A DNA stretch of 61,321 nucleotides, from NCBI GenBank assembly GCA_027491215.1, contig JAIXWP010000105.1, positions 1-61,321 on the forward strand, read 5' to 3'. The notes below the pieces were generated by a model that did not search any database, had not been told where the DNA came from, and saw only the letters and a program-made list of their open reading frames with translations. This DNA comes from Flavobacteriales bacterium. Its GTDB lineage: Bacteria; Bacteroidota; Bacteroidia; Flavobacteriales_D; Sanyastnellaceae. This document shows, in pieces, positions 19,842-26,023 of this stretch (the first letter of the stretch is position 1; every line of letters begins with the position of its first letter). A program made the position numbers and the translations under genes.

Positions 19842-21182
19842 TTACAACAACTCATTCGCTAAATTAGCAAGCTCGCTTCGCTCGCCTTTTTCAAGCGTGA
19901 CGTGACAATACAAATCCTGCCCTTTTAAACGCTCAATAACGAACGATAAACCATTACTCTGCTCATCTAGGTATGGAGTATCAATTTGTCGAACATCACC
20001 CGTCAAAATGATCTTTGTATTCTCACCCGCACGCGTGATGATGGTCTTCACTTCGTGAGGTGTCAAGTTCTGCGCCTCATCCACAATCATGATACAATTC
20101 GACAAACTTCGACCACGTATGAAGGCAAGAGGACAAATGGTTATTTTTCCTGCAGCTTGCATCTCATCAATCGCCTTGCGCTTCTTCTCATTTTCACCAA
20201 ATTGATTTTTGATGAAATTCAAATTATCCCAAAGAGGCTGCATGTAAGGATTCACTTTCTCCTCGGCGTCTCCAGGCAAGAATCCAATCTCTTTATTAGA
20301 TAGCGGGACAATAGGACGAGCCAAGAATAACTGATCGTACGTATTCTTCAACTCTAATGAACCAGCCAATGCAAGCAAGGTCTTTCCTGTGCCAGCCACA
20401 CCACTGATCGTGACAAGTCGGATTTCAGGATTCAAAATCGCATGCATCGCAAATGCCTGTTCAGCGTTCTTAGGTTTGATACCATAGGCATATACCTTAT
20501 CTACACGCTGAAGAGATTTTTCTTTACCATTAAAATAAGTCAATGCAGAAGATTGTCCATTGCGAAGAATATAAAAATGATTACTCATTTTCTCCTTTCC
20601 AAGCACCGTCAGTTTTTTCGATTCACCATCTTGATAAAGTTTGCGAATAAACTCACTTTCCACATCTTCGATCAACGACATACCACTGTACATCATCATG
20701 CTGTCCTTTACCTTACCAGTCTTGTAATCCTCGGCGGGCAAGTCAAGCGCCTTTGCTTTTAATCGCAAATTGATGTCCTTGGTGACCATCACCACCTTCG
20801 ACTTCTTTTCTTCTTGTTGAAGTTGAAGAGCAGCGTTCAGAATTTTGTGATCATTCTTTTTATCATTAAAAATTCTCTCCGCATCCGAAGTTAGATTTTC
20901 AGAAGAATTTAAAATGATTTTAAGCTTTCCCCCCGCCCCATTGTGCAGCGGAATCCAAGCTTGTAGAGAATGATTTTCGGAAAGACGATCAATAATTCGA
21001 ATGCACTCACGTGCCTCGAAATTTTTGATATCGTTACCCACTTTAAACTTGTCCAACTCTTCCAATACTGTGATAGGAATAGCGACAAGATTGTCTTCAA
21101 AACTGTTGATACAGTTGTGATCGTGTAACAGCACAGACGTGTCTAGCACGTAGATCTTTTTTACTTTGCGCGGTGTAGGCAT
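19842..21182 (-). CDS. PIN-PhoH ATPase fusion
   Basis: This 446-aa protein joins a PIN RNase-like domain (residues ~8-140, Asp14 in YVLDTSVLLHD, conserved EELDKFK) to a PhoH ATPase domain (~240-446, Walker A GVAGTGKT near 257, Walker B IMIVDEAQNL, and RQIDTPY). It is the PhoH2/YlaK-type architecture, in which related proteins show RNA-dependent ATPase, helicase and RNase activity. Its cellular role in Bacteroidota is uncertain. The gene is single; upstream lies a 376-base region with palindromic repeats. Confidence 0.92.
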   Translation of the reverse strand: MPTPRKVKKIYVLDTSVLLHDHNCINSFEDNLVAIPITVLEELDKFKVGNDIKNFEARECIRIIDRLSENHSLQAWIPLHNGAGGKLKIILNSSENLTSDAERIFNDKKNDHKILNAALQLQQEEKKSKVVMVTKDINLRLKAKALDLPAEDYKTGKVKDSMMMYSGMSLIEDVESEFIRKLYQDGESKKLTVLGKEKMSNHFYILRNGQSSALTYFNGKEKSLQRVDKVYAYGIKPKNAEQAFAMHAILNPEIRLVTISGVAGTGKTLLALAGSLELKNTYDQLFLARPIVPLSNKEIGFLPGDAEEKVNPYMQPLWDNLNFIKNQFGENEKKRKAIDEMQAAGKITICPLAFIRGRSLSNCIMIVDEAQNLTPHEVKTIITRAGENTKIILTGDVRQIDTPYLDEQSNGLSFVIERLKGQDLYCHVTLEKGERSELANLANELL

Positions 21183-21379
21183 AAGCCGTTAGGTATTAAG
21201 CGTGTAACTGTAAACTCCCTTCTCGGCCGTCTTCCGTTGAAGAAAACCATTAATCGGGCTTCATAAAATTAGACTTCTAAATATTAAGCCAACTTTACCA
21301 CTTACTTACTTATTAACTATGCGCGGATGATAAAGCGACTGAAAATTAAGCCAGTATAAAACCTCGTTGAAAACTGCCC

Positions 21380-21420
21380 GGTGCCTTCGATATGCTTCCT
21401 TCGGAAGCTACTCAGGCACC
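21380..21420 (-). repeat. Left palindromic element (nested hairpin)
   Basis: The outer arms GGTGCCT (380-386) and AGGCACC (414-420) pair perfectly. The inner arms GCTTCC (394-399) and GGAAGC (403-408) pair around TTC. The two internal loops are TCGATAT and TACTC. The minus-strand orientation matches the right element at 21936. Flanking bases TCGCGC follow on the gene-facing side. Confidence 0.9.
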
Positions 21421-21466
21421 TCGCGCAAGAATAACGCTCGCAACAAAATATACTCAGGCACCTCGC
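21409..21466. repeat. 42-bp partial tandem repeat of the palindrome's inner end
   Basis: The 16-mer TACTCAGGCACCTCGC occurs at 21409-21424 and again at 21451-21466. Similar CAACAAAA-containing bases follow each copy, giving an imperfect 42-bp period. The second copy lacks the other half of the palindrome. Confidence 0.85.
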
Positions 21467-21576
21467 AACGAATGTGTGCTAACAACAAAACAGAATATTC
21501 CTACTTTATTCCATCGTTAAACAGAATAATTTCTTTCGTTCCCAATTAATTCGAGATAATGATCTTTGAATCAAAA

Positions 21577-21858
21577 ATGGCTTACATGTACATTCTAGTG
21601 TGCGCTAACGGTGGCCTCTATGTAGGAAGCACACACTCTTTAGATAAAAGAATTGCCGAACACAACGCAGGTGAAGGCGCCAATTACACCAAAAAAAATC
21701 TTCCTGTAAAACTAGTCTTGGCAGAAAAACACACTTCAATAAGCTCTGCCTTTAGAAGAGAACAACAAGTAAAAAAATGGTCCCGAAAAAAAAAGATCGC
21801 CTTAATTGAAGACCATAAAGAAGAACTAATAGAACTAGCAAAAAAAAATTTCAAATAA
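21577..21858 (+). CDS. Small GIY-YIG nuclease (UPF0213-like)
   Basis: This stand-alone GIY-YIG domain of about 93 aa belongs to the YhbQ/UPF0213-like group. Visible elements are MYILVCANGGLYVGST (the GIY...YIG strands, here MYI and YVG), an Arg in KRIAEHNAG, YTKKNLPVKLV, and a Glu in FRREQQVKKWSRKKK as the metal-binding acid. ATG 21577 gives the usual family N-terminus; ATG 21559 would add six residues. It should be a DNA endonuclease or structure-specific nuclease, but the substrate is not known. The gene lies alone between inverted palindromic elements, which suggests it may act on or move with them. Confidence 0.82.
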   Translation: MAYMYILVCANGGLYVGSTHSLDKRIAEHNAGEGANYTKKNLPVKLVLAEKHTSISSAFRREQQVKKWSRKKKIALIEDHKEELIELAKKNFK

Positions 21859-21860
21859 TA

Positions 21861-21903
21861 AATCCGAAAGGAATCCGAAAGGATTCCGAAAAGGATTCCG
21901 AAT
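21861..21903. repeat. CCGAAAGG array with GAAA-capped hairpin
   Basis: Just after the GIY-YIG stop, ATCCGAAAGG-type units occur three to four times. GGAATCC (870-876) and GGATTCC (881-887) pair across a GAAA loop. There is no T-run, so it is not a standard terminator. Confidence 0.8.
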
Positions 21904-21935
21904 CTATAAAAAAATGTACGGTCAATTGCGCGCGA

Positions 21936-21975
21936 GGTCCCTGAGTAAATCCCGCAGGGATTGTATCGAAGGGCC
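21936..21975 (+). repeat. Right palindromic element (nested hairpin)
   Basis: The outer arms GGTCCCT (936-942) and AGGGCC (970-975) pair with one bulged T. The inner arms AATCCC (948-953) and GGGATT (957-962) pair around GCA. The internal loops GAGTA and GTATCGA match those of the left element read on the other strand. Confidence 0.88.
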
Positions 21976-21996: not shown

Positions 21997-23547
21997 ATGA
22001 AAACCACCTTCACTACCCCCATCATCATCCTCTTCATCCTGCTCACAGGATTCGCTAACGCACAGAGTAAACAAGATCTTGCGACGATTAAGAAACTCGA
22101 TGCTACTTTTCAAAAAGCGCTGACAGACTTCAACGTACCGGGAATGGCTATTGCTATTGTGAAAGATGACAAAGTCATTTTTGCAAAAGGATACGGCACA
22201 AAAAACACTGCTACCAACGAGCCGGTTACCGAGAACTCTTCCTTTGCTATTGCGAGCAACTCAAAAGCATTTACCGCAGCGGCGCTTGCTATACTTGTCG
22301 ATGAAGGAAAAATTAAGTGGTCAGATAAAGTCAAAACATACCTCCCCTACTTCGAACTATACTCTCCCTATGTGACAGATGAAATGACCATTCGAGATCT
22401 ATTATGTCATCGCTCTGGTCTTGCTACTTTTTCTGGAGACCTCATTTGGTATGGAACTACTCACTCGCGAGCAGAAATCATCAAGCGCGCAAAATACCTA
22501 GAACCTGTCTATGGGTTTAGAGAAAGCTATGGATACTCTAATATCATGTTTCTTGCAGCAGGTGAAATCATCCCTGTAGTGACAGGTAAAACATGGGATG
22601 AATTCGTTCGTGAAAAATTCTTTGCGCCGCTTGCAATGACAAATGCAAATACAAGCATCAAAGATTTCAAGCCCGGTCAAGACATCGCAAGTCCGCACAA
22701 TGAAGTCAATGGAAAAAATGTTCCGATTGAATATGTAGATTGGGATAACATCGGTCCGGCCGGAAGTATCAATGCTTCGGTAATGAACGTTTCACAATGG
22801 ATCAGACTTCAACTCGGCAAAGGCACCTTAGAAGGAAAAAAATATTGGAGCCCGGCGCGCACATTTGAAATGTGGGAAAATATTACACCAAAACCTGTAG
22901 GTGCATGGCAAAGAGAGAACATGCCTTCTCGTCACTTCAATGGTTATGGCCTCGGTTGGGAATTGATGGAATACGGCGGAGCAAAAGTGGTGAGCCACGG
23001 CGGCGGCTACGATGGTATGATTTCAAAAACAGTACTAGTTCCTGAAAAAAATCTTGGATTTGTAATCTTGACAAACAATATCAATAGTCTTCCTTCTTGT
23101 CTCACTTTCTCTGTGCTCGATGCATTCTTAAATGTTCCTTCTGGAAAAGACTGGCCAGGTATTTTTCTTGAATTCAAAAAATCAGATGAAGCGGGAGCGG
23201 CACAGGCGAAAATAGAAGCTGAACAAAAACGATTGAAAGAGACAAAGCCTAGCTTACCACTCACAGAATACGCAGGCACGTACTCGAGCCCGATGTATGG
23301 CGATGTAGAAGTTAAAATAGAGCCTTCTGGCGAACTTTCTATCGACTTTAAGCCAACAGCACTCTTTAAAGGCAAATTAGGCCATTGGCACTTGGATACG
23401 TTTAAATTGAACTGGACCACTCAAATGATGCTTCCACCTGGAGATGTAAGCTTCGTAATCAATGCGCAAGGAAAGGTCGAAGAACTTAGAGTATTCGTAG
23501 AAAACCCTGATTTTGACTTCACTGAGTTGAAATTGATGAAAAAATAG
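21997..23547 (+). CDS. Exported serine hydrolase, beta-lactamase family, with DUF3471
   Basis: This exported class C beta-lactamase/D-Ala-D-Ala-peptidase-like protein is about 516 aa. The signal peptide is residues 1-23 (ends GFANAQ). The catalytic motifs are Ser87-x-x-Lys90 (SNSK), the YSN motif in YGYSNIMFLAAGE and HGGGYDG. A C-terminal ~100-residue DUF3471-like domain (LTEYAGTYSSPMYG) follows. It probably acts on peptides or esters in the periplasm; true beta-lactamase activity is not implied. I start at ATG 21997 because the longer frame lacks a signal peptide at its start and would begin inside the palindromic element. A TATCTTGC box and a 6-bp hairpin lie directly upstream. Confidence 0.88.
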   Translation: MKTTFTTPIIILFILLTGFANAQSKQDLATIKKLDATFQKALTDFNVPGMAIAIVKDDKVIFAKGYGTKNTATNEPVTENSSFAIASNSKAFTAAALAILVDEGKIKWSDKVKTYLPYFELYSPYVTDEMTIRDLLCHRSGLATFSGDLIWYGTTHSRAEIIKRAKYLEPVYGFRESYGYSNIMFLAAGEIIPVVTGKTWDEFVREKFFAPLAMTNANTSIKDFKPGQDIASPHNEVNGKNVPIEYVDWDNIGPAGSINASVMNVSQWIRLQLGKGTLEGKKYWSPARTFEMWENITPKPVGAWQRENMPSRHFNGYGLGWELMEYGGAKVVSHGGGYDGMISKTVLVPEKNLGFVILTNNINSLPSCLTFSVLDAFLNVPSGKDWPGIFLEFKKSDEAGAAQAKIEAEQKRLKETKPSLPLTEYAGTYSSPMYGDVEVKIEPSGELSIDFKPTALFKGKLGHWHLDTFKLNWTTQMMLPPGDVSFVINAQGKVEELRVFVENPDFDFTELKLMKK

Positions 23548-23592: not shown

Positions 23593-23666
23593 GGCACCGT
23601 AGCTCAATTGGATAGAGCATCTGACTACGGATCAGAAGGTTTGGGGTTCGACTCCCTACGGTGTCA
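23593..23666 (+). tRNA. tRNA-Arg (anticodon ACG)
   Basis: A 74-base cloverleaf. The 7-bp acceptor stem pairs GGCACCG (593-599) with CGGTGTC (659-665) with one G-T pair, and A666 is the discriminator. The anticodon stem TCTGA/TCAGA encloses the loop CTACGGA, giving anticodon ACG (arginine, CGN). The T-arm contains GGTTCGACTCC. CCA is not encoded. Confidence 0.97.
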
Positions 23667-24661: not shown

Positions 24662-26023
24662 TTGAAATTCGCCATCACAGATATCGAAACCACGGGTAGT
24701 TATGCTTCAGGAAATAGCATAATCGAAATAGGTATTTGTGTTGTTGAAGACGATAAAATCATCGAGGAGTTTCATACACTGCTCAATCCAGGCATATCTC
24801 TACCACCTTTTATAATTGCGCTTACCGGCATTCAAACTCACATGTTGGCAAGCGCACCATCATTCTCACAAGTAGCAGATGACATTGCCGACATCTTCAA
24901 GGATGCGGTCTTTGTTGCACACAATGTCAATTTTGATTTCAGTTTTTTCAAAGCAGAATTCGAAGCACTTGGAATGACTTTTAATCCACCCAAACTTTGC
25001 ACCATCAAACTCGCACGAAAGGCCTTTCCTGGTATGCGATCGTATGGTCTTGGTAATATTTGTCGTGATCTACAAATCATCAACGATGCTCCACACCGCG
25101 CATTGGGCGATGCTCGTGCAACCACATCGCTTTTCTACAAATGCTTAGCAAACGTTGATTTCGATGTTGTACAAAAATTAATGGGAAGAACGACTACCGA
25201 AAATTTCCTTCCTCAACATATTGATCGTGCAGAGTATGACAAACTTCCAGAACGTACCGGTGTCTATTACTTCCTCAACCAACTAGGAAAACCTATTTAT
25301 ATCGGGAAGGCAAAAAATATAAAAAAACGCGTTCGTTCACATTTTGCCGGACCACTCAACACTGCAAAGCTGCAAGGATTTATTCGTGATATTCATCAAA
25401 TTGAATTTCGCGAAACAGGAGATGAAACACTAGCCTTGCTTTTAGAAGATTCGGAAATCCGGAAGCATTGGCCTCCTTACAATCGCGCACAAAAAGCAAA
25501 GACCAATTATTATAACATCATATCCTACGAAGATCAGCGAGGATATTTGAGATTAGCTGTGCATAAAGGCAAATACGCGTCGAATATTATTCAATCGTTT
25601 ACCTCTTCTATTCAAGCAAGAAATTGGCTCATTGAAACCACAGAAAGATTCAATATCGACCTTCGACTTATAGGACTAGATACAGGTCTTGAGAAAAAAG
25701 AATGGCCAGAAATTGATGAGCATAACAACATCCTCTTCGACGCATTAGAAACATTGAAAAAAGAACAAGCCAGCTACGTTCTACACAAACAAGGAAAAGC
25801 GAAAGGCGAGGTTGCATTCATCTATATCGAAAAAGGATTATTTCAAGGATTTGGATTCGCACCATATGAAGTGCAAATCACAAATCTCGAAGAGCTCTTG
25901 ACATACATCGAAAAACTCCCCGTAACTGAGATCAATCAATCCATCGCCCTCTCCCTCCTAGAAAATCCACGCCTCTGGAAAAAAACAGAGGTCTCCACTT
26001 GGGAGACCTCTGAGAGTTTATGA
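24662..26023 (+). CDS. DnaQ-type exonuclease fused to a GIY-YIG domain
   Basis: This 453-aa protein has an N-terminal DEDDh 3'-5' exonuclease domain (DIETTG at 6-11, HNVNFDFSFF near 90, HRALGDARAT near 143) followed by a GIY-YIG nuclease domain (~195-275, GVYYFLNQLGKPIYIGKAKN) like the N-terminal nuclease of UvrC or Cho. The C-terminal 170 residues are unassigned. Such fusions are thought to take part in DNA repair or proofreading. The start is TTG at 24662, which yields MKFAITDIETTG and leaves 2 bases after the upstream stop. The last codons form a strong hairpin (see findings). Confidence 0.88.
   Translation: MKFAITDIETTGSYASGNSIIEIGICVVEDDKIIEEFHTLLNPGISLPPFIIALTGIQTHMLASAPSFSQVADDIADIFKDAVFVAHNVNFDFSFFKAEFEALGMTFNPPKLCTIKLARKAFPGMRSYGLGNICRDLQIINDAPHRALGDARATTSLFYKCLANVDFDVVQKLMGRTTTENFLPQHIDRAEYDKLPERTGVYYFLNQLGKPIYIGKAKNIKKRVRSHFAGPLNTAKLQGFIRDIHQIEFRETGDETLALLLEDSEIRKHWPPYNRAQKAKTNYYNIISYEDQRGYLRLAVHKGKYASNIIQSFTSSIQARNWLIETTERFNIDLRLIGLDTGLEKKEWPEIDEHNNILFDALETLKKEQASYVLHKQGKAKGEVAFIYIEKGLFQGFGFAPYEVQITNLEELLTYIEKLPVTEINQSIALSLLENPRLWKKTEVSTWETSESL
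25986..26012. repeat. 11-bp hairpin inside the 3' end of the exonuclease gene
   Basis: CAGAGGTCTCC (986-996) and GGAGACCTCTG (26002-26012) pair perfectly around a 5-base loop, within the final codons. No T-run follows, so it is not a typical terminator. It may be a captured palindromic repeat or an mRNA 3'-end stabiliser. Confidence 0.75.

Follow-up and report, generated by a model that had tools for sequence, protein, structure and literature searches.

A standalone GIY-YIG nuclease gene amid tagged palindromes, a candidate REP-like mobile unit from a Flavobacteriales genome

Short hairpins accompany a small nuclease gene in the REP/RAYT systems (REPtrons, REPINs) and in the IS200/IS605 elements. 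The former are single-gene units with REP-like hairpin flanks and gene-less hairpins elsewhere, defined by a Y1/HUH tyrosine transposase and a GTAG tag, while the latter are hairpin-ended, with fixed ends and a small TnpA nuclease gene of the Y1 type. Another family, Ssn of Neisseria (Nat Commun, 2025), reportedly consists of site-specific GIY-YIG nucleases whose targets are cognate repeats in single-stranded DNA only. As for the repeats themselves, the CGTC REP superfamily surveyed by Di Nocera et al. (2013) is composed of tagged short hairpins that lie between genes and at times within them; its hosts include Bacteroidetes, Chlorobi and Spirochaetes. The survey counts dRS3 among the CGTC REPs and found no dedicated transposase for the superfamily (PMC3733652).

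We analyzed a window of 61,321 nucleotides, the whole stretch of DNA under study, in which a GIY-YIG nuclease gene (21577–21858) is bracketed by two opposed palindromes (21380–21420 and 21939–21973). The features of this intergenic locus are as follows.

21318–21379, no strand: outer left flank; DNA homology to the same-genus genome G039 runs out near 21317, which leaves 63 bp up to the left palindrome
21380–21420, minus strand: left palindrome GGTGCCT-GAGTA...TATCGA-AGGCACC, class A, with its tag GGT toward the gene; flank GCGCGA to 21426
21451–21466, minus strand: half palindrome (tag, 5' arm and GAGTA only), a direct repeat of 21409–21424, 100% over 16 nt
21577–21858, plus strand: GIY-YIG nuclease gene, 93 aa from the ATG at 21577 or 99 aa from the ATG at 21559
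21939–21973, plus strand: right palindrome CCCT-GAGTA...TATCGA-AGGG, with the tag flank GCGCGAGGT (21930–21938) toward the gene

A preliminary description of this DNA had placed a single gene between two opposed palindromes, and the comparison bears it out: the arms 21384–21426 and 21930–21972 are inverted-identical at 34 of 43 positions (79%), constitute the sole inverted pair in the 1-kb region, and are each themselves a hairpin. The inward-pointing flank GCGCGAGGT is likewise real, and the GIY-YIG gene alone is coded between the palindromes, as had been stated. Across the window, the next-best 43-nt match of an arm reaches 22/43 in inverted and 25/43 in direct orientation. The left hairpin reads GGTGCCT GAGTA-GCTTCC-GAA-GGAAGC-ATATCGA AGGCACC and the right one (GGT)CCCT GAGTA-AATCCC-GCA-GGGATT-GTATCGA AGGG; the stem sequence varies between the two ends with self-complementarity kept, GAGTA...TATCGA is constant, and both carry the core GAG…TCGA behind a tag GGTNNCT. 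Across the window, no other GAG...TCGA hairpin takes this form, and the scan returned 1 unrelated match against 1.1 expected by chance. The genome as a whole holds 3 palindromes of this kind, the third being an orphan on another contig (C145:2691), so no burst of copies has taken place there; the orphan and the half palindrome are additions to the preliminary description. Directly after the nuclease stop codon, a 12-nt unit (AAAGGATTCCGA) is present three times in tandem (21867–21901).

The layout resembles that of REP/RAYT, and the parallel with REP/RAYT drawn in the preliminary description holds for the way such a unit would work. It fails for the defining features: no Y1/HUH transposase lies between the palindromes of the window and no Y1_Tnp gene was found in its genome (99.95% complete), the GTAG tag is absent, and the enzyme chemistry is different. 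With IS200/IS605 the unit shares hairpins at its ends, a small nuclease gene and a possible preference for single strands; it differs in the lack of a TnpA/Y1 domain and in palindromes whose number and orientation vary between loci, with no fixed ends or target site apparent. The CGTC REPs are characterized by CGTC at one end, an 8–9 bp stem, a 4–5 nt loop and a CCA-like tail, a set of features that the window palindromes do not show, their class (class A) having GGT as its tag instead, with an internal loop of the form GAG...TCGA. A second class of the present palindromes (class B) carries GTC at the same end as the CGTC REPs. A further difference from these repeats is that palindromes of similar design are here accompanied by a dedicated GIY-YIG gene.

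In the Ssn family, too, the GIY-YIG nuclease is small, stands alone and has a cognate sequence that occurs repeatedly. The present unit likewise has its putative cognate palindromes next to the gene as well as at distant sites (one orphan in its own genome, more in relatives). Three loci (L099, L103 and L112, class C) have related GIY-YIG genes amid GTCATTCCCGCG...GCGGGAATCC palindromes, which we take to resemble the Neisseria dRS3 repeat. The window class differs by its GGTNNCT tag and GAG...TCGA core. The window protein is a likely candidate member of the Ssn family, and parts of the present results may already be published under that name. The earlier statement that no described family has this make-up is thus probably too strong, given Ssn and the CGTC REPs. 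A literature search with the exact repeat sequence gave no match, and within the literature open to searching no paper describing GIY-YIG genes paired with REP-like palindromes was retrieved. Evidence of mobility of the kind given below (an insertion in hsdR, present and absent sites) is not known to have been reported for Ssn.

The window protein carries a GIY-YIG domain (PF01541, E=1.8e-17) and keeps the conserved residues of the fold, among which Y5, Y15, G17, R25 and E62 are invariant across 25 aligned proteins. It is the sole small GIY-YIG protein of its genome, the 2 other matches falling in much longer open frames (607 and 463 aa). Within the window, an ORF at 24662–26023, 3 kb from the unit, joins an exonuclease-like (DnaQ-type) N-terminus to a second GIY-YIG domain (E=4.8e-8). 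The AlphaFold model of the window protein (pLDDT 92.5) resembles UPF0213 proteins and Slx1, with a TM score of 0.60 and a deviation of 1.7 Å relative to the Slx1 nuclease domain. Slx1 is a structure-specific nuclease, and the predicted fold fits an enzyme acting on extruded or single-stranded hairpins. Fold and domain are common to the UPF0213/YhbQ-like proteins (PDB 1zg2, 1ywl), whereas more distant GIY-YIG relatives (L087, L110 and L111) lack such flanking palindromes. Proteins 51–63% identical to that of the window occur in many phyla, with a patchy distribution: homologues are present in 13/114 genomes of the family and in 109/395 sampled genomes of the phylum (E<=1e-12). A viral scan returned only two weak partial matches. 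A second GIY-YIG subfamily, met as weak matches in the bacterial genomes (L021, L024, L025 and L026), has a tRNA gene in 4/4 fetched loci, three tRNA-Val and one tRNA-Asp; in L024–L026 the tRNA ends about 45–95 bp upstream of the nuclease match.

The association of this gene with the palindromes is strong. Any hairpin with the core GAG...TCGA was looked for at 60 loci, each taken with as much as 10 kb of flanking DNA. Hairpins crowd the gene on either side, with a density of 2.59/kb at 0–250 bp from it versus 0.004/kb at 5–12 kb, while 12 control cores give values near zero at the same loci. A hairpin is found within 500 bp of the gene in 45 of the 60, and several of the remaining 15 have other palindromes of similar design, e.g. 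GTCATTCCCGCG...GCGGGAATCC. In an independent set of 80 named loci, selected by protein similarity only, 71 are positive (3.28 hairpins/kb within 250 bp versus 0.042/kb further out). The positive loci come from at least 10 phyla: Bacteroidota, Calditrichota, Fidelibacterota, Spirochaetota, Ignavibacteriota, Chloroflexota, Chlorobiota, Planctomycetota, Thermodesulfobacteriota and Actinomycetota. The densities in both sets, together with the uniqueness of the pair in the window, rule out chance pairing.

Several palindromes in mixed orientation stand on both sides of the gene at other loci, and the inverted, inward-pointing layout of the window is no rule. They are therefore better described as REP-like repeats than as the inverted ends, or fixed terminal inverted repeats, of the earlier proposal. 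Palindromes without a gene are common in some genomes; those far from any such gene could reflect movement in trans or simple decay. Genome-wide counts of CTGAG...TCGAAG exceed those of the reversed control in many genomes. Among 14 genomes picked by eye for a high count and no match at the class A threshold, 11 hold a homologue that is class B-like or further removed; within about 1.5 kb to the left and right of the gene, GTC-tagged hairpins are present at 5/20 loci of this sort, which explains the high counts only partly.

Could the palindromes be moved in trans by a RAYT/IS200-type tyrosine transposase, the GIY-YIG gene being a caught passenger? The layout recalls REP/RAYT and some Y1_Tnp gene is present in 16 of 20 genomes checked, but we hold this explanation to be very improbable. 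In the same genomes, a hairpin lies within 600 bp of only 1/20 RAYT/IS200-type (Y1_Tnp) genes, and this control, with the lack of any such gene in the window genome, largely refutes it; moreover, the hairpins are associated with the GIY-YIG gene and their tag tracks the GIY-YIG clade (see below). The nuclease–palindrome link, inferred in the preliminary description, thus receives strong support from the association, the RAYT control and the concordance of tag and clade, and the contrary outcome it had named, palindromes in relatives unassociated with GIY-YIG genes, was not seen.

The structure of the hairpins was analyzed on 129 palindromes chosen by the 11-nt core GAGNNNNTCGA alone. Arm positions -4 to -2 pair in 97, 99 and 101 of them (75–78%), against maxima of 61, 61 and 71 in 2000 shuffles. 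The positions X and X', after GAG and before TCGA, respectively, form a C-G or G-C pair in 103/129 (80%), with a shuffle maximum of 68. From this pairing we infer a fold of the form T-[GA/GA]-G-X...X'-(T bulge)-C, in which the G-A mismatches of the core G-A-G...T-C-G-A would stand in tandem, next to a G-C pair that has a bulged T, with the covarying pair or stem as the cap.

Two tag classes are distinguished by GG at position -7 (class A, to which the window belongs) or GTC at -8 (class B), the tags being GGTNNCT or GTCANNCT. On a protein tree of 42 loci, the distribution of GG and GTC needs 1 change, compared with 10–19 in 200 label shuffles, in a tree that has few columns and many open forks and whose related loci have inherited tag and protein type together. 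Paralogues from one genome are split by clade, each with its own tag: L064 (GG) and L106 (GTC) in G169, L072 (GG) and L080 (GTC) in G338, and L071 (GG) and L083 (GTC) in G125. Minor variants (GC, GA or GT at -7) exist at a few loci of the looser 80-locus set, so that GG holds for a strong majority but has exceptions.

Gain and loss of the unit can be followed at several places. In Chlorobium, the gene and hairpins stand beside one orthologous flank gene in 6/30 examined genomes, and 24/30 are without both; in several of the 24, the same two neighbour genes are about 60–190 bp apart, and they are several hundred bases further apart in the element-bearing genomes. In the genome G221, the GIY-YIG gene and palindrome arrays are inserted in frame inside a gene for an hsdR-like restriction helicase (L063:8240-11182, minus strand). 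This insertion of about 180 codons falls in the loop FQTFMSG^SPYFGEYP, keeps an open frame of 999 aa and is missing from 9 homologues. Another genome (G178) has two diverged dispersed copies with unrelated flanks, and in several genomes small GIY-YIG genes resembling one another follow in tandem at intervals of about 0.3–0.9 kb, at the following places.

G348:C1:1911881-1912826, tandem GIY-YIG array
G244:C1:1384616-1385519 and 1733884-1734724, tandem GIY-YIG arrays
G282:C1:135227-136954, tandem GIY-YIG array
L103:431-1553, tandem GIY-YIG array
L097:9368-10611, tandem GIY-YIG array

At the window locus, a search of DNA from the same genus gave no clean empty site, the flanks being too divergent, and a protein-guided comparison with G039 was used instead. 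Window positions 21100–21317 match G039 (L242) at 74% by blastn. In G039, phoH is followed by tRNA-Arg and then by the homologue of the window gene at 23661; in the window, the unit and a serine hydrolase gene (21997–23547) stand between the phoH side and that gene. The difference between the two genomes also takes in the serine hydrolase gene, so the insertion may have other boundaries than the two palindromes, and this gene may have arrived with or near the unit. The GIY-YIG gene and flanking hairpins are absent from the phoH loci of 29 relatives in the family; this was the comparison suggested in the preliminary description, and conservation in place, its contrary outcome, was not seen. Taken with the presence/absence sites, the hsdR-like insertion and the multi-copy genomes, mobility of the gene with its palindromes, as had been proposed, is well supported by sequence comparison.

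The same observations bear on the reading of the palindromes as mere RNA hairpins that, for instance, terminate or stabilise the mRNA of a housekeeping UPF0213/YhbQ-like gene. The hairpins are indeed near the gene at each end, and their RNA copies would fold as well; yet they flank it in mixed orientation, form arrays, and occur inside the hsdR-like gene and elsewhere in genomes. Their core is specific while the stems vary, the more distant relatives L087, L110 and L111 lack them, and the gene is not conserved in place. We give this explanation, largely refuted by the mixed orientation, the relatives without such palindromes and the lack of conservation in place, hardly any credence.

A nuclease that serves the host or is neutral, and has cognate repeats like those reported for Ssn, deserves more weight. 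Such a non-selfish enzyme would cut incoming or lagging-strand single-stranded DNA at the repeats and tune DNA uptake or genome dynamics, and the presence/absence patterns would result from ordinary horizontal transfer and loss. The kind of protein, the design of a gene with cognate palindromes, the predicted Slx1-like fold and the apparent resemblance of the class C palindromes to dRS3 are consistent with this possibility. However, insertion of the whole unit in the hsdR-like gene looks selfish, as do the tandem and dispersed copies and the patchy spread in the family, and we consider the host-serving alternative unlikely, if clearly less so than the two others.

The unit looks like small mobile or selfish DNA built on an unusual enzyme, and we regard as probable a minimal nuclease–palindrome unit in which a standalone GIY-YIG nuclease, with tagged hairpins as its cognate sites, spreads via single-strand cutting and host repair. 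The sites would be short hairpins with a 5' tag (GGTNNCT in the window) and the core G-A-G...T-C-G-A, recognised while the DNA is single-stranded, on the lagging strand or during recombination or DNA uptake. The nuclease, which presumably binds and cleaves single strands, would cut at or beside the hairpin, and host repair or recombination would rejoin or copy the cut ends. By this putative route, palindromes and occasionally the whole gene with its flanking palindromes would reach new places, genes included. No GIY-YIG enzyme is known to rejoin ends, and true transposition would therefore depend on the host. A broader proposal, that this is a widespread selfish DNA whose transposase-free nuclease spreads a tagged G-A-mismatch hairpin along with its own gene by single-strand cleavage and host repair, and is the missing dedicated enzyme of CGTC-type and related REPs, is put forward tentatively, as a reading that may or may not hold. 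What the data tie together is tagged palindromes of the general CGTC-REP kind and a specific GIY-YIG gene across at least 10 phyla, with a tag that follows the enzyme clade. If this is confirmed, REP-like mobile DNA evolved around a second, unrelated nuclease fold, tag and core form a code from which the targets of many a small GIY-YIG gene can be predicted, and such enzymes may serve as single-strand cutters.

Some palindromes are nested in one another (L014:475-515, L048:1926-1967 and L041:815-868), and in two of these the inner one ends directly before the outer TCGA. These few cases hint at insertion next to the TCGA of another palindrome, a possible target preference.
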